Part shown: positions 13,011 through 23,864 of the stretch, piece by piece
Numbering within the stretch: position 1 is the stretch's first letter
How the letters are laid out: each line of letters begins with the position of its first letter
Assembly: GCA_943789375.1 (NCBI GenBank)
Contig: CALSTX010000002.1
Span: forward strand, 124,001-188,000
Reading direction: 5' to 3'
Length of the DNA: 64,000 nt
Source of the DNA: an uncultured Opitutales bacterium
GTDB taxonomy: Bacteria; Verrucomicrobiota; Verrucomicrobiia; Opitutales; Seribacteraceae
The notes under the pieces: generated by a model
Database searches by the model: none
What the model was told of the DNA's origin: nothing
The model's input: only the letters and a program-made list of their open reading frames with translations
Position numbers and translations under genes: made by a program

Positions 13011-13759
13011 ATGAGCGAAGAAAATAGTAAACCCAAGATAGCCCTAGTTACTGGTGCTGGAAGAGGAATTGGCCGTTCGATTGCGGAGGCTTTAGCCAAA
13101 GATGGAATGAAAGTTATTTGTGTAAGCAAATCCGAGTCATCCTGCGGGGCAGCTGCAGAGTCTATTTGCGCGGATGGTGGAGATGCTATAGCTCGTGCTG
13201 TAGATGTTTCTTCAGGAGAAGAAATTCGTCAGGCATGCGACGCACTCCTTGAAGAATACGAATGCGTTGATGTTCTCGTCAATAACGCCGGGATTACCCG
13301 AGATAATCTTCTGTTCAGGATGGAAGAAGATGATTGGAATGCTGTGTTACATACAAATTTAACTAGTTGTTTTCATTGGATTAAACATTTGGGCCGACCT
13401 ATGACAAGAAAACGATGGGGGCGAATTGTAAATATTTCTTCCGTGGTCGGTTTAACCGGAAACGCTGGGCAGGCGAATTATTCTGCAGCCAAGGCTGGGA
13501 TGATTGGCTTAACCAAAAGTTTGGCCCGTGAGTTTTCTGCTCGTTCGGTCACCGTCAACGCTGTAGCTCCGGGATTCATCGATACGGACATGACATCCGG
13601 GCTTGATGAGAGGTAAAGGAAGTTGCCTTATCTCAGGTTCCCTTAAAGCGTTTTGGGTCGGTCGAAGATATCGCCGATATGACCTCCTTTCTATGTTCTG
13701 AAAAAGCATCCTATGTCACCGGCCAAGTTTTTACGGTTGACGGAGGCATGGTGATGTGA
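13011..13759 (+). pseudogene. fabG: 3-oxoacyl-[ACP] reductase FabG, single frameshift
   Basis: The first 201 codons encode a typical SDR: VTGAGRGIGRSIAEALA cofactor loop, LVNNAGITRDN, ISSVVGLTGNAGQANYSAAKAG (catalytic Ser, Tyr, Lys) and NAVAPGFIDTDMTSGLDE. The frame then hits a stop at 13614. The missing 48 residues (VKEVALSQVPLKRFGSVEDI and onward to QVFTVDGGMVM) are perfectly preserved one frame over, ending at 13759. Restoring one G in the GG at 13612-13613 rejoins them into a 249-aa protein of exactly family length. FabG is normally essential, and no other lesion is present, so a base missing from the assembly is more likely than true gene loss. It is the first gene of fabG-acpP-fabF. Confidence 0.9.
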
Positions 13760-15402: not shown

Positions 15403-15479
15403 GCACCCGTAGCTCAATTGGATAGAGTGCCTGGCTACGGACCAGGAGGTTGGGGGTTCGACTCCCTCCGGGTGTGCCA
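15403..15479 (+). tRNA. tRNA-Arg (anticodon ACG)
   Basis: A 77-nt cloverleaf. Acceptor GCACCCG pairs with CGGGTGT, the D-arm starts TAGCTCAATTGGATAGAG, the anticodon stem CCTGG/CCAGG encloses loop CTACGGA (anticodon ACG), the T-arm is GGGGGTTCGACTCCC, the discriminator is G, and CCA is encoded. Its 3' end is the attachment site for the island that follows: 23-bp and 50-bp copies of the same 3' sequence recur at 17799 and 19924. Confidence 0.95.
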
Positions 15480-16150
15480 TTCTATAACTAGCGGGAATCC
15501 CGCTTAAATAGAGACCTTCCTTCGGGAGGGTCTTTTTTTTGGTAGACTTATATTTTGCCACTCTATACCTAAATATACCCATGTTTCACCTATTTTCTGC
15601 CAACAAATCTGCCAACACATGAAGGTATCAATAAGTATAGCATAGGAGAAAAGTTCGCGAAGACGGATATAGTGGGCGACTTGACGGTTTACTCACCACG
15701 GGAAAAGGAAGAGGAAATTCTTTAATACCCAAGTTGAAGCAAAACAATTTGATGTTTTGGCGTTGGCTTGCAGGGGAGTACGGCAAAAAAGGAGCCCGCG
15801 GGTGATACAGGACGATCCTGTCGGTTGCCTTCGATCTATACATGTTTGAGCTATTCGGGAAAGAGGAATGAGGAATGACCACAAGCTCAGGACAGAAGGG
15901 GTATGCTACGACCGGGGACCGTGTCAGTGAAGTTCATTGCGACTGGTTCGGAGCGGAGAGATCAGATTGGTCAGTGAGGTGACATCGGAGGATTGGCATT
16001 AAGTATCTGAGACTCCGGCAACTGGTCGTCACAAAACAAAGCTTGGGTATGGTGGTGCAGTTAAGATATTTCATGGCTTGGTGCGGATCCAAGGGATTAC
16101 GGGCAAGTTGAAGGAGCACTGGTACTCCACCGTCAACAAGGGGCTTCATG
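15457..16150. repeat. Direct repeat copy A: tRNA 3' end, terminator and integrase start
   Basis: From the tRNA-Arg T-arm through the terminator and about the first 180 codons of a tyrosine recombinase, this segment is closely related to 17799-18470. Both copies have the same order and spacing. Copy A has many more substitutions inside the integrase part. It marks the left end of the first integrated unit. Confidence 0.85.
15513..15540 (+). terminator. Rho-independent terminator after tRNA-Arg
   Basis: Stem GACCTTCC / GGAGGGTC (one G-T pair) around a TTCG tetraloop, followed by a run of eight T. A second perfect hairpin AGCGGG-AAT-CCCGCT lies just before it (15490-15504). The whole block recurs at 17831-17881. 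Confidence 0.85.
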
Positions 16151-16695
16151 ATCGAAGCTACAAAGCAAAAGAAGTTTCGCTAAGTTGCCAGGTATTTGTA
16201 CTCCGTTGAGGAAACGCAGGGGATTACTTGGTGCGATTCACGAGAAGTATCAGCCCCGCTACTTGCCGTTATGTTCTTCACGGGAATACGCGCTGAGATT
16301 GAAATGGACCATGCTTCAGGTACTCTGACATTCAAGTGGGGCAAGCGGATTGGCTTGAATGGCAGAGATCGACCTAAGACCGGGAGGGAGCGATGGATCA
16401 TACCGCACCTGAGAACTTATGGGAGTTGGCTACCCAAGGACGGAAAGGGAAGGGTTCAGTAAATCCTGTTACCTATAATGCTCTTAGTCGCAGGCGAGGG
16501 CTTTGGCGGCCAGGGAGGGCATTTGGGTGGGAGAATAATGCAAGGCACAAGTGGCGGGGGAGGAGTTCGACGGTTTTAGTCCATCCCGCAAATGGTGCGA
16601 GGCACTCCTTTGGTAGCTACGGGTATTGGCGAGACTTTCGCGTGGGCTCTCGATACCATGGGGCATATGAGTCAGTCAGAGTCGTTCCTTTCTAG
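15619..16695 (+). pseudogene. Tyrosine recombinase (integrase) remnant of unit 1
   Basis: The ATG AAG GTA TCA ATA start matches the better-preserved copy at 17960, but stops and frameshifts follow within 10 codons and recur throughout. Readable stretches in various frames align with the 17960 integrase up to about 16150. Beyond that point they retain pieces of the catalytic domain missing from the other copy: FFTGIRAEIEMDHASGTL (box I Arg) near 16270 and ARHSFGSYGYW (box II-like) near 16597. A complete integrase was therefore once present. It points inward from the tRNA, the standard position for an element integrated at a tRNA 3' end. It is inactive as written. Confidence 0.8.
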
Positions 16696-17226
16696 AACTA
16701 CAAAAATAACAGGGTAGGGCAAGGAGGAGGCCGAGGAGTTCTTTAGTATTGTTCCTACATAAATCCTACATTTTGTAAAATGGTTCACCAATTTGTCATA
16801 GCGTGTTTTTATTTGATAACACACTTTTTCGTGTTGCATAGGCAACACCGATTGCATGCATGTGTTAAATCTGACACACCATTCACTACATTAATCGTGT
16901 TTGTGGATGATAATCGGGCGTTCAGTACGCTTGATAACGGAAAGAAAAGAACAGGAGCAGATATTCTAGGTATTGAAGGATATAAGAATACTACTCACTT
17001 GGCTGCTTCTCCCTTTTTTATCAATCGTTGTTTATCCACACTATTTCTTGTCATGGAAAGGGTTGTACATACACATTCTGATAAAGAAAAGAAAAAACTT
17101 TTATTTTCGTAAAATAAATAAAGTTTATTAAATACCTAATATTTTTTATTATAAAAACTTGACATTCTTATCATTTCTTAACATAAGATCACATTCCGTG
17201 CTTAAATTGCCCTAAATCACATCAAA
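16696..17226. other. Non-coding, A+T-rich stretch inside unit 1
   Basis: About 530 bp between the integrase remnant and the small ribbon-helix-helix-like gene. It has a perfect 7-bp inverted repeat GTGTTGC-ATAG-GCAACAC at 16831-16848, a consensus DnaA box TTATCCACA at 17032-17040 and a run of A+T before 17227. A 110-codon open frame (16780-17112) has no ribosome site or recognisable domain and is not called. Confidence 0.5.
17159..17189 (+). promoter_or_regulatory. Candidate promoter for the unit 1 cargo genes
   Basis: Consensus -35 TTGACA at 17159-17164, with CATAAG (17 bp spacing) or TAAGAT (19 bp) as -10. It lies about 40 bp upstream of the ATG at 17227. Confidence 0.5.
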
Positions 17227-17454
17227 ATGAAAAAGACATCAAAAAAGGATTACATTGCGATAAACACTCGCATACCACTGGAAATATACCAGCAAATGCA
17301 AGAATCCCTTCTTGTAACCAAAAAAACCGTAGGAGCCTATGTAGCTGACTCGGTAGAACAATACACCCAATTAATAACAAACACGGGCAATAAGGTGCCT
17401 GAAACTAATGCCATGCAGATTGACAAATTTGCCTGGCAGTTAAGCAGAAAATAA
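17227..17454 (+). CDS. Small ribbon-helix-helix-like protein
   Basis: A 75-aa basic protein. The segment DYIAINTRIPLEIYQQMQES followed by KKTVGAYVADSVEQYTQL has the strand-helix-helix pattern of Arc/MetJ or CopG-type DNA-binding proteins common on small mobile elements. It is preceded by a good promoter and is followed after 1 bp by a membrane-protein gene, so the two form an operon. It could regulate element genes or be an antitoxin-like partner. No toxin family is recognisable next to it. Confidence 0.6.
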   Translation: MKKTSKKDYIAINTRIPLEIYQQMQESLLVTKKTVGAYVADSVEQYTQLITNTGNKVPETNAMQIDKFAWQLSRK

Positions 17455-17455
17455 T

Positions 17456-17848
17456 ATGCAAAATCAATATTCCCAAGAACCTACGGTAACAATACTCCAC
17501 GATTCAAAAGAATGGGAAACCCAGTTTGATGTTCCAATTAAAGAAATCAGGGTGGATGGACAAAAGTTAAATGATGTTCACGATCTAACACTTAAGATCG
17601 ACGGTATGACTGGTATCATAAAGAAACTAGCACACACTGCCACTGTTCTAGCTGTTGTTGCAGTTACTGTTTTATTGGCTATCGGAGCTTGGCTTCTTAT
17701 ACATCATGAAGAGCTAGTTATATCCCAAGAGGCCACTGCGAAGTTAAGAAGTTCCAATTTTGTAATGGGGGATAAATTAAACTCCCTTGGATGGAAATTT
17801 CGACTCCCTCCGGGTGTGCCACTCATAACTAGCGGGAATCACGCTTAA
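17456..17848 (+). CDS. Single-pass membrane protein whose C-terminus reads through the att site
   Basis: A 130-aa protein of unknown family. An acidic N-terminal region (1-60) is followed by one strong membrane helix (TATVLAVVAVTVLLAIGAWLLI, about 62-83) and a short C-terminal domain. The last 17 residues (KFRLPPGVPLITSGNHA) are encoded by the tRNA-Arg 3' repeat and the sequence beyond it, so the reading frame crosses the recombination junction at 17799-17821. The natural C-terminus was therefore probably set or replaced by integration of the neighbouring unit. It is co-transcribed with the RHH-like gene. Confidence 0.6.
   Translation: MQNQYSQEPTVTILHDSKEWETQFDVPIKEIRVDGQKLNDVHDLTLKIDGMTGIIKKLAHTATVLAVVAVTVLLAIGAWLLIHHEELVISQEATAKLRSSNFVMGDKLNSLGWKFRLPPGVPLITSGNHA
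17799..17821 (+). repeat. att repeat: 23-bp tRNA-Arg 3' end
   Basis: Identical to the last 23 nt of tRNA-Arg (T-arm half, acceptor strand and CCA). It separates the two tandem units. Confidence 0.9.
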
Positions 17849-17853
17849 ATAGA

Positions 17854-17881
17854 GACCTTCCTTCGGGAGGGTCTTTTTTTT
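17854..17881 (+). terminator. Rho-independent terminator, copy B
   Basis: Same GACCTTCC-TTCG-GGAGGGTC hairpin and T-run as after the tRNA. Here it ends transcription of the unit 1 cargo genes. Confidence 0.85.
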
Positions 17882-17959
17882 GGTAGACTTATATTTTATC
17901 ACTCTGTACCTAAATTTACCCATGTTTCACCCATTTTCTGTCAACAAATCTGTCAACAC

Positions 17960-18502
17960 ATGAAGGTATCAATAAAAAAGCATAAGGTTCGCGAAGACAT
18001 AAAGTGGGTGATTGAGGTTAGCCACCACGGGAAAAGAAAGAGGAAATTCTTTAATACCCAAGTTGAAGCAAAACAATTTGATGTTTTATCGTGGCTAGGG
18101 GATAAGGAAAAAAAGGAGCCTGCTGGTAACAGGACGATCCTATCTGTTGCCTTTGATTTATATATGAATGACTATTCAAAGAGAAATAGGAATGAGTACA
18201 AGATCAGGCAGAAGGGTTATGATACGACATATGACCGAGTGAGTAAGTTCATTAACTGGTTTGGAGCGGAGAGAAAAGTTTCAGATGTAAAAACTGAGGA
18301 TTGGCATAATTATCTAGAGTCCGGCAACTGGAGTCACAAAACAAAGCTAGGGTATGGAGGTGCAGTTAAGATATTTCTAGCTTGGTGCGGATCCAAGGGA
18401 TTAGGTCAGTTGAAAGAAAACTGGTACTCCACCGTCAATAAGGAGTTGATTATAGAGCAAAAGCAAAAGATACTTTTTCTATTTCAGACAAATTTCACTT
18501 GA
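17960..18502 (+). pseudogene. Tyrosine recombinase, N-terminal half only (unit 2)
   Basis: A 180-codon open frame that ends abruptly. It contains the N-terminal arm-binding-like region (IKKHKVREDIKWVIEVSHHG, KRKRKFFNTQVEAKQFD) and the core-binding SAM-like domain (TTYDRVSKFINWFGAERKVS, VKTEDWHNYLESGNWSHKTK), matching copy A. Related integrases continue for another 150-200 residues with the catalytic R-H-R-Y domain, which is absent. The sequence switches after ENWYSTVNKEL to unrelated codons and a stop, so the 3' half was deleted or replaced. The truncated protein could bind DNA but cannot recombine it. Confidence 0.85.
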
Positions 18503-18533
18503 GTGCCCAATATATTTTAATAATTATACAAAT

Positions 18534-19864
18534 ATGAAGAAAATTTTAATTTTTTTGTTTTACAGTATTACTCAGTTTTCGCTTGTTTACGCCCAGTATG
18601 CCCCGGATAGTTTATCTGGTACTAAAGCTAACTTTGATTTTACTTTAGAAGGTGAAAATATAAGTATTGATTTCTACAATATTGATGATTTTGCATCATT
18701 TGGTGAACATGGTCATATAGGCGAATGGGGAGGATCGTGGTACACTTGGGAAAAAACTTCACCCAATACTGGTACTCTTAAAATGGCGGAGCACGGACCC
18801 TTTACAACTGGATTTACCGAAGTATTCATGACCTTTACCTCCCAGACTACAGGTACATGTATCTTAAAAGAGTATGAATATGAGGATGGTCAATTTGACC
18901 AAAGTCCAGTTATGGGATGGGAAGCAACTGGTTCATTTACCTTATTTGAAATGACTGATTCAGATGCTCTTCCTTTTGATGTTTATTTCAAAGATGATTT
19001 TAGCTCGGATAATATAAATCGAGATATTTGGCCTCAAGAACAGGAGTACGGGATTGAATTGGTCCAATCAGATGGAGCTTTGAGTCTTCAAGGTACATTA
19101 ACTGACGCAGATGAGCGGTGGTACGAAATTAATGCGAATACGATACTTAAAATGTCCGAGGACTGGGTGGTAGAAGGAGAGGCTTTCTCCAATTTGCATG
19201 AGACTGAAGCAACAAATTACGGTGCTTTATTGGGGATAGATCTTGAGACAACTAAAATTGCCTTAACCGTTGATTTAAACATAGGTATATCCCCTTGGGG
19301 TATATACTCTGAAATTAATGCTCTATGATCAGGAGGCGGGCGATCATCCAAGCTTAGGAAGAGAAGAATATCAATTTCAGTCCATCACTCTTCAAGAGGG
19401 AAATAGTGGGAAATTCAGAATCCGAAATGATTCTGAGAATAAGATAATTTATGCAGAATACATGAAAAGAAGGGGACTGGACTTCTGTTTTTGAGCTAAA
19501 CTGGCAGTCAGGTTTGTTAACCCGTGCAAGTTCTAATCTCTATTCCTCATCATCTGACTTACAGCACCAATTTACAGGTTGGGTTGCTTTAGATGATTAC
19601 AATGCTAGACCCGACATTGATTTCAGAACTCCAGTAAAAGAAGAAAACGGTAATATTGAAATCCTTCCTTTGACCGCGGGTAACCTTGGTTTTCGTAACT
19701 ATTCGGTTACCAAAGGCAAGCCAGTCGCGAAAAATTGGATGTGGTTTGATCATTATCCTTGGGTTTATTCTGCTGAAGAAAGCAATTGGATTTATTTCTA
19801 TCCATCTAACAGCAAGCTTATGTATTTTAGTGTTAAGAATAACGCCTGGATGGAAATGAAGTAA
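18534..19864 (+). pseudogene. Secreted beta-rich protein with C-terminal WMWFDHYPW domain, two frameshifts
   Basis: The gene starts with a clear signal peptide (KKILIFLFYSITQFSLVYA) and then APDSLSGTKANFDFTLEG, the same opening module as the two large proteins at 31.8-36.6 kb. A DVYFKDDFSSDNINRDIWP element begins a LamG-like region with WYEINANTILKMSEDWVVEG. Frameshifts near 19322 and 19472 (in a GGGG run) split it. In the other frames the sequence continues cleanly (DQEAGDHPSLGREE, GKFRIRNDSENKIIYAEYM, DWTSVFELNWQSG) to the C-terminal WMWFDHYPWVYSAEESNWIY block. Two one-base corrections give 442 aa. It is the cargo of the second integrated unit and is either decaying or misread. Confidence 0.8.
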
Positions 19865-19923
19865 TTCTTCTGGCAACAAAATGCCAACACCAGTCCAGGG
19901 GTCAGTAAATAAGCCGATCATTT

Positions 19924-19973
19924 CCTGGCTACGAGCCAGGAGGTTGGGGGTTCGACTCCCTCCGGGTGTGCCA
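19924..19973 (+). repeat. att repeat: 50-bp tRNA-Arg 3' half (right end of island)
   Basis: Matches tRNA-Arg from the anticodon stem to CCA with two adjacent differences in the anticodon loop. It lacks the 5' half, so it cannot be a functional tRNA. It is the displaced original 3' end expected at attR. Confidence 0.9.
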
Positions 19974-20088
19974 TTTTTAATAAGCCACAATCTTACTAAT
20001 AAAGCACCTCTCAGCAATTGCGGGGTATATAATTACTTACTTTATAATACTTCTTGAATACCCACATTTTCTTGGTTATTTTGGCGAA

Positions 20089-22035
20089 GTGAAAGTTGTT
20101 AGTAAAAAGCCTACGGTTTGTGTGGCTATAAGGTGGGTCCTGCTCGTAAATCTGTTGCTCGCATCACTCGCTGGGAAAGATGATCGCCCAGCCAAACCCA
20201 ATGTCATCCTGATGTTTGTTGATGATCTCGGCTGGCAGGATGTGAAGTGCTACGATATCGATAAACCTAGCCCGATGGAAACTCCCAACCTCGACGCACT
20301 TGCTAAACGGGGTGTACAATTCTGGAATGGCTACTCTCCTGCACCCACCTGTGCCCCTTCCCGCTCTGCGCTGTTAAGTGGCGTGCACCCAGCGCGAGCT
20401 CAGAAAACCCATGTTGTCGGTGGCACCCCACCGCACCCGCACCATAGTGTCGGTACTACCTTGATGGCCCCCTGGTACAGTGGGCGCATGCCTGAGACCA
20501 CATTCAACCTCGCCAAAGCAATGAAAGCAGAGGGCTACAGCACCGGCCACACTGGCAAGTGGCACATTGCCGTGGAGCACCACGCATTTCCCCAGCCGAT
20601 GGATATCGGCTTCGACTTCACCACCCACCAAGCAGGCTGTAATACCCGAGGAGTACAAAGTGGCATGCGAAACCGTCTCGATGGATTTGCCACCAACGCC
20701 AAAAACGACCCTTATCGCCTAGATCAAAACGGTTTCGCCAGAGACATCGTCACCACCGAGGCCATCAATTTCATTGACGATCACAAAGAAGAGCCCGTCT
20801 TTCTCTACTACGCCACTTGGCTGGTGCACACGCCCATTCAAATCAGGAGCAAACGTCTACTGGAGAAATACTGCAAGAAACTCGGCGTAGAAATGCCTAG
20901 TGACCCGGGGAAATGGCCTCTAGAAGGTCAAAATAATCCCTACTACTGCGGCATGGTCGAGACCCTCGATTACTACGTCGGCCAAATCATCTCCCATCTC
21001 GAAGAAACTAACGATCCACGCTGGCCTGGTCATAAGCTCATTGAGAACACTTACATCATCTTCACCTCTGATAACGGCGGCATGGAAGGTGGCGGTGGCC
21101 ATGAGGTTATCACCGATAACTACCCGTTGGATAAAGGCAAAATCAACGCCAAGGAGGGCGGCACCCGTGTCCCTTTTATAATTGCCGGCCCAGGAATCAA
21201 GAAGGGTGTTCAATCCGAAGTCGTTATCAACGGGTTGGATCTCTACCCGACAATTCTATCATGGGTAGGTGCTCAGCCTAAGGAAGGTAAAATTCTCGAC
21301 GGCTCCGACCTCTCCACCATGCTCAAGACGGATGCTACCAAGGCCGAGCTCGTTGTCGATGCAGATGGCAAACCCCGCAATACCATGGTCTGGCATTTCC
21401 CTCACAGTTCCATGCAGAGTACCATCCGCATTGGCGGTTTCAAACTCATCCGCAATCATAATTACCTCTTTCACCCATCTGTTCCCCAATTTGAGCTTTA
21501 CCAACTCTATGATGAAAGCGGGAAGCGCGTCGACATCGAGGAAGCCAAAAACCTTTCCGATCAAGACCCCGAACGTGTCCAAAAAATGGATCAGTGCCTC
21601 ACTGAGATCCTCACCGAGATGGATGCCAGCCAACCGCTCTACAACATATATGGCCGCCATGTATCCGCACAATTCAAAAATTCAGCCCCCACCGCGCTCA
21701 AGCACACCCAGTCAGGAAACACCGTTACGCTTAATTACAAGGAAAACGGCACTAAGCTGCGCAAGGCTCATTTGATCTATACCAACAATCCCGGCGTACA
21801 CGAGGAAGAGTGGTTTCGCAACCCAGCAACTATCAACGCGGACAACACAGTCACTGCGATACTGCCCGCGGATGCTACCCACTACTATATCAACCTGATC
21901 GATACCAACCAAGTGCTAGTCAGTTATCCCGAGTGCCCTGACTCTCGTGCCCACAGCGAGGCAACAACCAAGGCTTTGGGCAAGAAAGCCCACAAGAGCA
22001 GTTACATCCACTTTGCGCTTCCAACCAAGCCTTAA
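20089..22035 (+). CDS. Sulfatase, Cys-type, with extra C-terminal domain
   Basis: A 648-aa exported arylsulfatase-like enzyme. GTG start, signal peptide (WVLLVNLLLASLAG), then NVILMFVDDLGWQDV (metal Asp pair), the formylglycine motif CAPSR in SPAPTCAPSRSALLSG, TGHTGKWHIA and IIFTSDNGG. The core ends near residue 530. About 110 further residues form a beta-rich domain (NTVTLNYKENGTKLRKAHLI onward). It should hydrolyse sulfate esters of marine glycans after conversion of the Cys to formylglycine. Base composition is visibly richer in G+C than every neighbour, and the gene starts 116 bp beyond the right att repeat, so recent acquisition is likely. No partner glycosidase lies beside it. Confidence 0.93.
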   Translation: MKVVSKKPTVCVAIRWVLLVNLLLASLAGKDDRPAKPNVILMFVDDLGWQDVKCYDIDKPSPMETPNLDALAKRGVQFWNGYSPAPTCAPSRSALLSGVHPARAQKTHVVGGTPPHPHHSVGTTLMAPWYSGRMPETTFNLAKAMKAEGYSTGHTGKWHIAVEHHAFPQPMDIGFDFTTHQAGCNTRGVQSGMRNRLDGFATNAKNDPYRLDQNGFARDIVTTEAINFIDDHKEEPVFLYYATWLVHTPIQIRSKRLLEKYCKKLGVEMPSDPGKWPLEGQNNPYYCGMVETLDYYVGQIISHLEETNDPRWPGHKLIENTYIIFTSDNGGMEGGGGHEVITDNYPLDKGKINAKEGGTRVPFIIAGPGIKKGVQSEVVINGLDLYPTILSWVGAQPKEGKILDGSDLSTMLKTDATKAELVVDADGKPRNTMVWHFPHSSMQSTIRIGGFKLIRNHNYLFHPSVPQFELYQLYDESGKRVDIEEAKNLSDQDPERVQKMDQCLTEILTEMDASQPLYNIYGRHVSAQFKNSAPTALKHTQSGNTVTLNYKENGTKLRKAHLIYTNNPGVHEEEWFRNPATINADNTVTAILPADATHYYINLIDTNQVLVSYPECPDSRAHSEATTKALGKKAHKSSYIHFALPTKP

Positions 22036-22322: not shown

Positions 22323-23864
22323 TCAGCTTTCCCTTGAATCTTTTTTATCAACTGAATTGTCTTTTTGCTCAGACTCAGATCCGGGCTTTTCAAGATCAAC
22401 ATCCACACTTTTCGGTATTTCAGAGCTGGGCTTAATTAAATTCTCAACCTTTACTGCTCCACCTTTTGTAGTGTCTTCGGTGGAGGTATTAGCTTTTTGG
22501 GGCAGAGGGCTATTATCTGAAGAAGACACTTTATTTTGGGTCTTTGTTTCGCCTAGTTTCGTGCCCTCTTTTCCAACTCCATCCTCAACTTTTTCTTTTT
22601 CCCCAATAGTAGGATCAACTTCTTTTGTTTTCTTTTCCTCGTCTTGGGATGCCTTTTTAACCGAATTATCCGCAATAGTCTCTGCATTTTTACCGTCCTT
22701 TTCAGGTGTAGATGGAGAATCTTTAGTGGGAGTTTTAAAAGCGTCAGCAGGTTTTGCTACTTTGGAGTCTTCCTGGTTTGTGCCACCTGAAGAAATTGAA
22801 GATTTTGTATCTTGTTTCTTAGGCTCGGTTTCTTTTTTACCGGAGTCCTTCTTATTAGAATCAGATAAACTTTCTTTTTTAGCCGATGAAGAGCCAGTTG
22901 GCTTGTTTAAATCTTGCTTTTTTTCCACCTCAACAGATTCATTTTTCTTTTTAACTTTCTGCAAGACTTTCTTTTTCTTGTCATCTTCGGACTTTGTTTT
23001 GGCGGCCATTTCCTTACGAGCACTTACAAAAGAAATGATACAGAGAAGAACATAAATAAACAATAATCCCGAAGTTAATAACATCGAAAGGGGTTTAAGC
23101 ATGGATGCATGGATAATCCCATAGGGTTCTCCTTTCAACCAGTTCATTTCAGCAACAGCAGTCCCAATTTTTCCCGCACTGACAATGAAACCAAATAAGC
23201 CAACGAGAACAGCCACATGCATTATGTGCTTTCGGGCTTTTTGTGCCATTTCCGCTCCTTGGGCTAAGAGAATGAGTAGCAGTCCGATGATTCCTGGTAT
23301 AAAAGCGGTCCAACTTTTTGAAAAAGTCAGTTCTTGACCTGCTTCTGGAAGGGGGGTTAGATCCACATTATCCCAATTGTTTGATGTGAGGGTGGCAGGA
23401 CCGGCATTTCCAGCTATGTTTTTGTAGATAATTCGGAGACTGGAGGAATTAACATCAATTTTGGTCCAATCAATGGAGATTTGATTCTCACTGCCTGCTG
23501 AGTTGTACCTTTCGGATTCAAGAAGCAAGCCTTTCATGGTTTCCCCACGGGAAGAGGCGTACCAAAACGAATGCAAATCGTTGTCATTTGCCCCGTTTTC
23601 AGTGGCAAAATTCTTCTGGGAGGCGACTCGGGCATGGTCCTCGTTAAGTTTGTGGGCAATCCACCAAACATTTTCACCAGCGGATTCTGGGCAAGGGATG
23701 AAATCTAGTACATGCTTGTCAACTCCATCCGAGAGAACGAATGAGGCATTACTCGCAAGAGGACCTTTTAGTTTTAAGGTCAAACCGGGATCTTGTACGA
23801 GATATCCGATTAGACCTGTAAGGACAAGAAAACCTCCTATTATAAAAGTTGGAACTTTAATCAT
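22323..23864 (-). CDS. Membrane protein with long charged low-complexity tail
   Basis: A 513-aa protein. One N-terminal membrane helix (TFIIGGFLVLTGLIGYLV) precedes an extracytoplasmic domain of about 165 residues (ENVWWIAHKLNEDHARVAS). Three more helices follow (FIPGIIGLLLILLAQGA, MHVAVLVGLFGFIVSAGKI, LSMLLTSGLLFIYVLLCII). From about residue 285 to the end it is a Lys/Glu/Ser/Asp-rich disordered tail of some 230 residues (VLQKVKKKNESVEVEKKQD and similar), probably cytoplasmic. I recognise no family, and the tail could tether or bind other proteins. It is divergent from clpS across 110 bp. Confidence 0.75.
   Translation of the reverse strand: MIKVPTFIIGGFLVLTGLIGYLVQDPGLTLKLKGPLASNASFVLSDGVDKHVLDFIPCPESAGENVWWIAHKLNEDHARVASQKNFATENGANDNDLHSFWYASSRGETMKGLLLESERYNSAGSENQISIDWTKIDVNSSSLRIIYKNIAGNAGPATLTSNNWDNVDLTPLPEAGQELTFSKSWTAFIPGIIGLLLILLAQGAEMAQKARKHIMHVAVLVGLFGFIVSAGKIGTAVAEMNWLKGEPYGIIHASMLKPLSMLLTSGLLFIYVLLCIISFVSARKEMAAKTKSEDDKKKKVLQKVKKKNESVEVEKKQDLNKPTGSSSAKKESLSDSNKKDSGKKETEPKKQDTKSSISSGGTNQEDSKVAKPADAFKTPTKDSPSTPEKDGKNAETIADNSVKKASQDEEKKTKEVDPTIGEKEKVEDGVGKEGTKLGETKTQNKVSSSDNSPLPQKANTSTEDTTKGGAVKVENLIKPSSEIPKSVDVDLEKPGSESEQKDNSVDKKDSRES

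Follow-up and report, generated by a model that had tools for sequence, protein, structure and literature searches.

It is very probable that the tRNA-Arg(acg) gene in the window, the whole 64,000-nucleotide stretch of DNA analysed here (G000:C2:124001-188000; G000 assembly of 2.73 Mb in 27 contigs, 92% complete), is a hotspot of tailed-phage integration, that two tandem prophages at this gene have been gutted, and that the integrase gene nearest the tRNA is a consensus of two phage alleles. The initial annotation had described tandem related integrase elements at one tRNA-Arg gene, each an integrative element of 2.2-2.3 kb, and a paradox in which the tRNA-proximal integrase was the more decayed. 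The tandem arrangement is supported; the small elements and the paradox are not.

ARAGORN and alignments bear out the three direct copies of the tRNA 3' end that delimit the two units (Table 1). The 23-mer of the middle copy is present three times in G000; of 26 further genus members searched, 13 have a single copy each. The related integrase and common terminator noted behind both the tRNA and the middle copy are likewise confirmed: 15484-15634 and 17825-17975 are 95% identical and share the same terminator hairpin, and the self-alignment that had been called for extends the similarity over 15457-16177 and 17799-18476, integrase genes included.

Table 1. Features of the tRNA-Arg locus (positions in the window)
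Feature	Position	Strand	Observations
tRNA-Arg (acg), intact	15403..15479	+	ARAGORN; last 50 bp (15430-15479) form the attL core
Phage right-arm flank, unit 1	15480..15618	+	Terminator hairpin; putative arm-type repeats at 15598 and 15610; 93-98% identity with five phage contigs; alignment from 15484 on free of indels
Unit 1 integrase, full-length in outline	15619..16762	+	52-55 insertion events versus L088 and L086; interpreted as a mixture of L086-like and L088-like alleles
Phage DNA directly 3' of unit 1 integrase	16763..16840	+	16813-16840 matches L087 and L092 at 28/28; deletion junction near 16840
Inverted 173-bp piece of a phrog_5931-family phage gene	16838..17010	+	93% to L092
Phage DNA left of attP	17002..17454	+	Intact 75-aa ORF (17227-17454); identity 96-97% to five phage contigs, 89% to another two
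Remnant of a phage membrane-protein-like gene (label judged by eye)	17456..17798	+	56-58% to L088, L096 and L097; end cut at the att core
Middle junction	17799..17821	+	Right 23 bp of the 50-bp core (23/23 to tRNA, E 8e-9); lacks the core's left half and the left arm repeats
Right-arm flank, unit 2	17822..17959	+	Same terminator as unit 1; arm repeats at 17939 and 17951
Unit 2 integrase, truncated	17960..18470	+	First 170 codons; 91% aa to L086
Host-type gene, three ORFs in three frames	18534..19864	+	Between truncated integrase and phage left arm
Phage left-arm flank, unit 2	19870..19923	+	Repeats at 19871 and 19882
attR	19924..19973	+	50-bp core, 48/50 to tRNA, E 4e-20

The relatives of these units are phage contigs. 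A scan of IMG/VR with the distal integrase returned six contigs at 63-91% identity, and a scan with a full-length relative returned ten, five of them new. The contigs of the close relatives reach 24.8 kb, and those that were aligned have full integrases of about 350 aa. Their gene order is a 75-aa gene, a 130-aa-type gene, the 50-bp tRNA core, the terminator, the integrase and then the terminase, and protein identity to the window reaches 97%. In five IMG/VR contigs the 23-mer is present without mismatch and is followed by AACTAGCGGGAAT; no contig there has a perfect match to the 48-mer from the intact tRNA. Within the window, 15432-16840 maps to the phage core, terminator and integrase plus a short downstream match (16813-16840), 16838-17010 maps inverted onto the phrog_5931-family gene, 17456-17798 maps to the phage gene next to the 75-aa gene, and 19870-19975 maps to the phage left arm and core. 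On this mapping, both units are best read as the two ends of prophages joined by deletions.

The integrase matches phrog_1 (E 5e-14) and, weakly, IntI4 (E 0.004); a Pfam search of it gave no match. Its residues R208, K235, R300, H321 and Y331, which we take to be the catalytic residues of tyrosine recombinases, are near-invariant (at least 90% conserved in integrase alignment A1), and these columns together with the phrog_1 match indicate a tyrosine recombinase. Among 50,697 phage records the integrase has no match at E 1e-5, and the terminase has 21 matches, with 23-30% identity among the 10 listed. No complete phage genome of this group was found, and a literature search found no paper on it, the existence of one not being denied. 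Judged by these record searches, the phage group is apparently undescribed. A terminase search of G000 gave no match; on this negative result the units would have lost their packaging genes and be defective. The host-type gene in unit 2 is probably secreted, from a signal-like start judged by eye; its first ORF has 31-36% identity to genus paralogues, and the IMG/VR scan gave no match for the cargo ORF. Of eight window ORFs searched against Pfam, seven had no match and the remaining one is a sulfatase.

The att core common to the tRNA and the phages is about 50 bp, so the 23-bp copy is not itself the core, as had been supposed. Putative arm-type repeats of the form NGNCAACA, a motif picked after the flanks had been inspected, lie at about -55/-44 and +165/+177 from the core start in all seven phage contigs tested, the -44 repeat being absent in L092 and L094; elsewhere in these contigs the repeat type has 0-3 matches per contig. 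By position, and by analogy with lambda-type integrases, these repeats may bind the integrase. In the window, right-arm repeats follow the first two cores and left-arm repeats precede the last, and one additional match lies at 16131, inside the integrase. No arm-repeat motif lies just left of 17799, and the core there is cut; the middle att therefore lacks its left half and left arm, and the outer pair is complete. The 23-bp copy is thus a 50-bp core shortened by a deletion that also took the left arm-type repeats. An integrase is present, and phage arm DNA lies on the inner sides of attL and attR, as in a prophage remnant.

The same tRNA is empty or differently filled in other genus members, as the initial annotation had anticipated. 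The interval was read in 14 relatives, eight with empty and six with filled sites. At empty sites, a Lys/Glu-rich gene on the opposite strand (window 22323-23864) has its end 28-108 bp after the tRNA. In G022 the filling is a sulfotransferase gene, in G016 a methyltransferase gene; it measures about 2.2 kb in G019, some 400 bp in G026, the sister species, and some 250 bp in G020, whose flanking ORF appears shortened. In a second species, G013, the tRNA 3' end stands in three direct copies, as it does in the window. Its second copy (45 bp, 91%, E 6e-13) is followed by a truncated integrase and a 254-aa cargo ORF, its third is degenerate (13 bp exact, E 0.002), and it is the only one of the 27 genus genomes with a terminase match, a 31-aa fragment in its first tRNA-Arg unit. 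On this layout G013 has a relic pair of its own at this tRNA, and one of the two includes a terminase fragment. Besides G000, four of 17 relatives have a phage-type flank behind the tRNA: G026, G023, G013 and, weakly, G019 (E 1e-4). The survey was given 21 relative loci, two of them without the tRNA and two too short, and the 17 had at least 600 bp downstream. In G023 the contig ends about 760 bp past the tRNA, so that a longer element is possible there; the G023 genome gave no integrase match. Matches to named records exist for two genus members: both records, AG-891-C06 and AG-919-G08, are of uncultured Verrucomicrobia, and names of this type presumably denote marine single cells.

These features are best explained by the following history. 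The tRNA-Arg(acg) gene would be an attachment hotspot for temperate tailed phages with a tyrosine-recombinase integrase beside attP. Their 50-bp core would recombine with the tRNA 3' end, rebuilding the tRNA and supplying the phage's own terminator. Two such prophages came to lie in tandem and then lost their interiors. What is left of unit 1 is the integrase, the 173-bp fragment in flipped orientation and the genes immediately to the left of attP; unit 2 retains the first half of its integrase and the left arm, together with a host-type gene. Half of the middle att site went in a small deletion, so that unit 1 should not excise alone, and the outer attL and attR still carry core and arm repeats. 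The insertion-riddled proximal integrase would be a consensus of two alleles in the sequenced population.

It is unlikely that one prophage was duplicated in tandem, or that a phage dimer integrated, in place of two separate integrations. The middle junction is laid out like attP, as it would be for dimers and tandem lysogens alike. Against a duplication, the alleles seem to differ: the unit 2 integrase is nearest L086 (92% nt over 17799-18470, which covers core, terminator and integrase start), the second component of the unit 1 mixture described below is nearest L088 among the homologues tried, and the retained interiors of the two units differ.

A further reading, also rather improbable, holds that the relic pair is not dead and that the 4.5-kb block could be excised and reinserted in trans by a phage of this group, which would make the locus a phage-driven cassette site moving host-type genes between strains. 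Since the outer attL and attR keep the 50-bp core as well as the arm repeats on either side, trans excision by an incoming phage is conceivable. Were this reading true, the G013 pair, with its different cargo gene, would be another instance. The initial annotation had looked to a trans-acting integrase elsewhere in the genome. A scan of genome contigs with the distal integrase found no relative, a scan with the tRNA-Thr integrase found only two genomes, and no integrase of this kind was found elsewhere in the G000 assembly, from which, at 92% completeness, such a gene could be missing.

The proximal integrase departs from its homologues almost entirely by insertion. Against the distal copy, 32 of 33 gaps are insertions in the proximal copy; there are 55 insertion events against L086 and 52 against L088, with no deletion against either, and 43-55 insertion events with 0-1 deletions against five phage integrase genes (L092 and L096 aligning only from about 15786). 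A stricter alignment with seven phage genes leaves 36 insertions (one of them a flank position near 15483) and one deletion in the proximal gene, and none of either in the distal copy. The 138 bp before the gene (15484-15621) show no indel against L086, L087 or L088, and over the rest of unit 1 deletions equal or exceed insertions in all six alignments. As background, G026 and G000 differ by four frame changes in 53 syntenic genes (21,384 aa), 47 of 100 G026 ORFs having been dropped for want of a syntenic match at the thresholds used.

That the gene is one uncorrected noisy long read is very unlikely. Some raw long reads typically have an insertion-rich error profile like the one seen here, and two of the four background frame changes, isolated single-base indels in fabG and fabF just upstream, suggest imperfect polishing. 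Random insertions, however, do not raise similarity to a second allele. The longest common subsequence of the proximal integrase is 929 of 1053 with L086 and 945 of 1062 with L088, although L086 and L088 have only 822 in common (about 78% of letters in order), and simulations of random insertion into either parent reach only 831-841.

The letters of the two alleles are also interleaved along almost the whole gene. When it is cut into 20 successive pieces (60 nt each, the last one shorter), L086-only and L088-only letters are both present in 19, and the second piece has L088-specific letters only. L086 and L088 differ at 299 ungapped columns, and the proximal gene has 129 and 130 single parental letters, 12 of them at gapped columns and 247 at ungapped ones. 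Both parental letters are retained at 37 of the 299 columns, compared with 9-24 in 16 simulated controls and none in three real homologues. Parental letters switch 87 times in 247, close to the counts for real homologues (77/250 in L087, 75/259 in L092), so switching alone is no proof of a blend; the discriminating signs are the double letters, the increase in length and the similarity to both parents. The parents used are proxies, L086 and L088 leaving 46 inserted and 40 mismatched letters over; with the unit 2 integrase as parent of the 5' part there are 27 double letters, 22 other insertions and seven mismatches. An exact 25-mer of the blended stretch is found in no IMG/VR contig. The blend runs on past codon 170, where the unit 2 integrase is truncated, and a fuller L086-like allele is thus probably present in the sample.

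The proximal integrase is most likely an assembly consensus of two co-occurring phage alleles and not a real gene in decay. Its simplest cause, we infer, would be that reads from cells or phages carrying different alleles were merged into one consensus, and this mixture could also have affected the tandem order as assembled. Usual decay does not describe this gene, and its reading as a two-allele consensus removes the decay paradox. With that argument gone, nothing seen contradicts, or proves, the usual order, in which the newest element lies next to the tRNA. Unit 1 has an intact small gene that is up to 97% identical to phages; unit 2 has a truncated integrase and a host-type gene spread over three frames.

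Insertion-biased decay, random long-read error and minimal elements were all considered as explanations and rejected. It is highly improbable that the units are two autonomous or satellite-like mini integrative elements (tycheposon- or IME-like) of integrase plus cargo. Such elements would suit the clean att-integrase-cargo-att layout, the host-type cargo gene in unit 2 and the truncated integrase and cargo between att copies in G013. The fuller relatives have a terminase and further phage genes: the terminase large subunit after the integrase in L086 is named by both PHROGs and Pfam, and L087 and L088 have the same gene, recognised because its translation is near-identical or similar. Phage contigs, some of them with terminase, account for the pieces of unit 1, which largely refutes mini elements for that unit, and its junctions are irregular, with an inverted fragment; the distal integrase is truncated, and the assembly holds no other copy. 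Compact relatives free of phage genes were not found, the close relatives being longer contigs and the compact one in G013 having its terminase fragment. That the proximal integrase is a real pseudogene with mainly accumulated insertions, which is how the assembled sequence shows it, is hardly credible against 52-55 insertions and no deletions in 1.1 kb, an indel-free stretch just before it, the low background of frame changes and letters that fit two phage alleles far better than simulated random insertion.

Tandem defective prophages at a tRNA gene are a known kind of locus, and it is the phage group that is apparently new. Tandem lysogens and accreted ICEs and IMEs have related elements lined up at a single tRNA att site, separated by a hybrid att. 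The window likewise has several related elements at one such site; unlike in ICE/IME accretion, both units are relics of phages, conjugation genes were not seen, and half of the middle att is deleted. Tycheposons combine tRNA sites with a tyrosine recombinase in a marine bacterium, as here, but the close relatives of the window units are contigs, one of which (L086) has a named terminase.

Defective or 'grounded' prophages, as a review describes them, are att-bounded remnants that can have deletions, an inversion, a resected att site and an acquired non-phage gene (PMC6379469). The window relics show the same features of grounding; they differ in being about 2 kb each and two in tandem at one tRNA, and in a phage group whose integrase is unmatched in the phage records searched. 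Merging of reads from several strains into one consensus in long-read metagenome assembly is described in the Strainberry report. The strains treated there are 97.6-98.7% identical (PMC8302730). The two alleles here have about 78% of letters in common in order and appear interleaved with a gain in length.

The blended gene is the most instructive detail of the locus. It cautions that a seemingly heavily frameshifted pseudogene can be a two-allele consensus, recognisable by letters of both alleles, greater length and the absence of deletions. For the biology of the group, the locus shows repeated integration and gutting at one tRNA within one genus, and the exact attachment site ties an uncultured IMG/VR phage group to marine Verrucomicrobia hosts.

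In the sister species, the tRNA-Arg gene is adjoined by a phage-type flank, and the 3' half of this gene may itself be phage-derived. Its T stem carries, as judged by eye, a compensated change.

The tRNA-Arg interval of three other relatives (L043, L046 and L047) is occupied by cargo genes, among them a sulfotransferase and a methyltransferase, and no second att copy was detectable in these three intervals. In L047, nuclease/phosphatase-like and isochorismatase-like ORFs were recognized by eye. Downstream of attR in the window lies a sulfatase gene of elevated GC content. Comparison of the sister species' tRNA-Arg site with the window showed no sulfatase gene there; the sister species' copy, 77% identical to that of the window, sits on a different contig.

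Features of the tRNA-Arg locus, related loci and a phage contig
Feature	Location	Remarks
Related integrase, 348 aa	L004/L005 1489-2546	Two genus genomes, adjoining tRNA-Thr(cgt)
Sulfatase gene	Window 20089-22035	Between attR and the flanking gene
Remoter phage contig	L098 9803-9850	Has the core of the other phages
tRNA-Arg of sister species G026	L040 6707-6783	

Relatives of the integrase also occur at other tRNA genes. The final codons of the 348-aa integrase overlap the tRNA-Thr(cgt) gene, and in a further genus genome (G013, L008) a truncated related integrase adjoins tRNA-Thr(cgt) too. Remoter relatives, at 30% and 27%, adjoin tRNA-Phe(gaa) in G001 and G024 (L056, L057).

Upstream of tRNA-Arg in the window, fabG and fabF are each broken in frame by one single-base indel (at ~13613-13643 and ~15071). 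The fabF frame is open, at 394-440 codons, in 20 of the 21 relatives matching its first 326 residues. Both indels are likely assembly errors, though they may be real.

In the remoter phage contig (L098), GCCATTATT-type repeats replace GCCAACA, by eye, at the putative arm positions; it looks as if arms and integrase had changed together.
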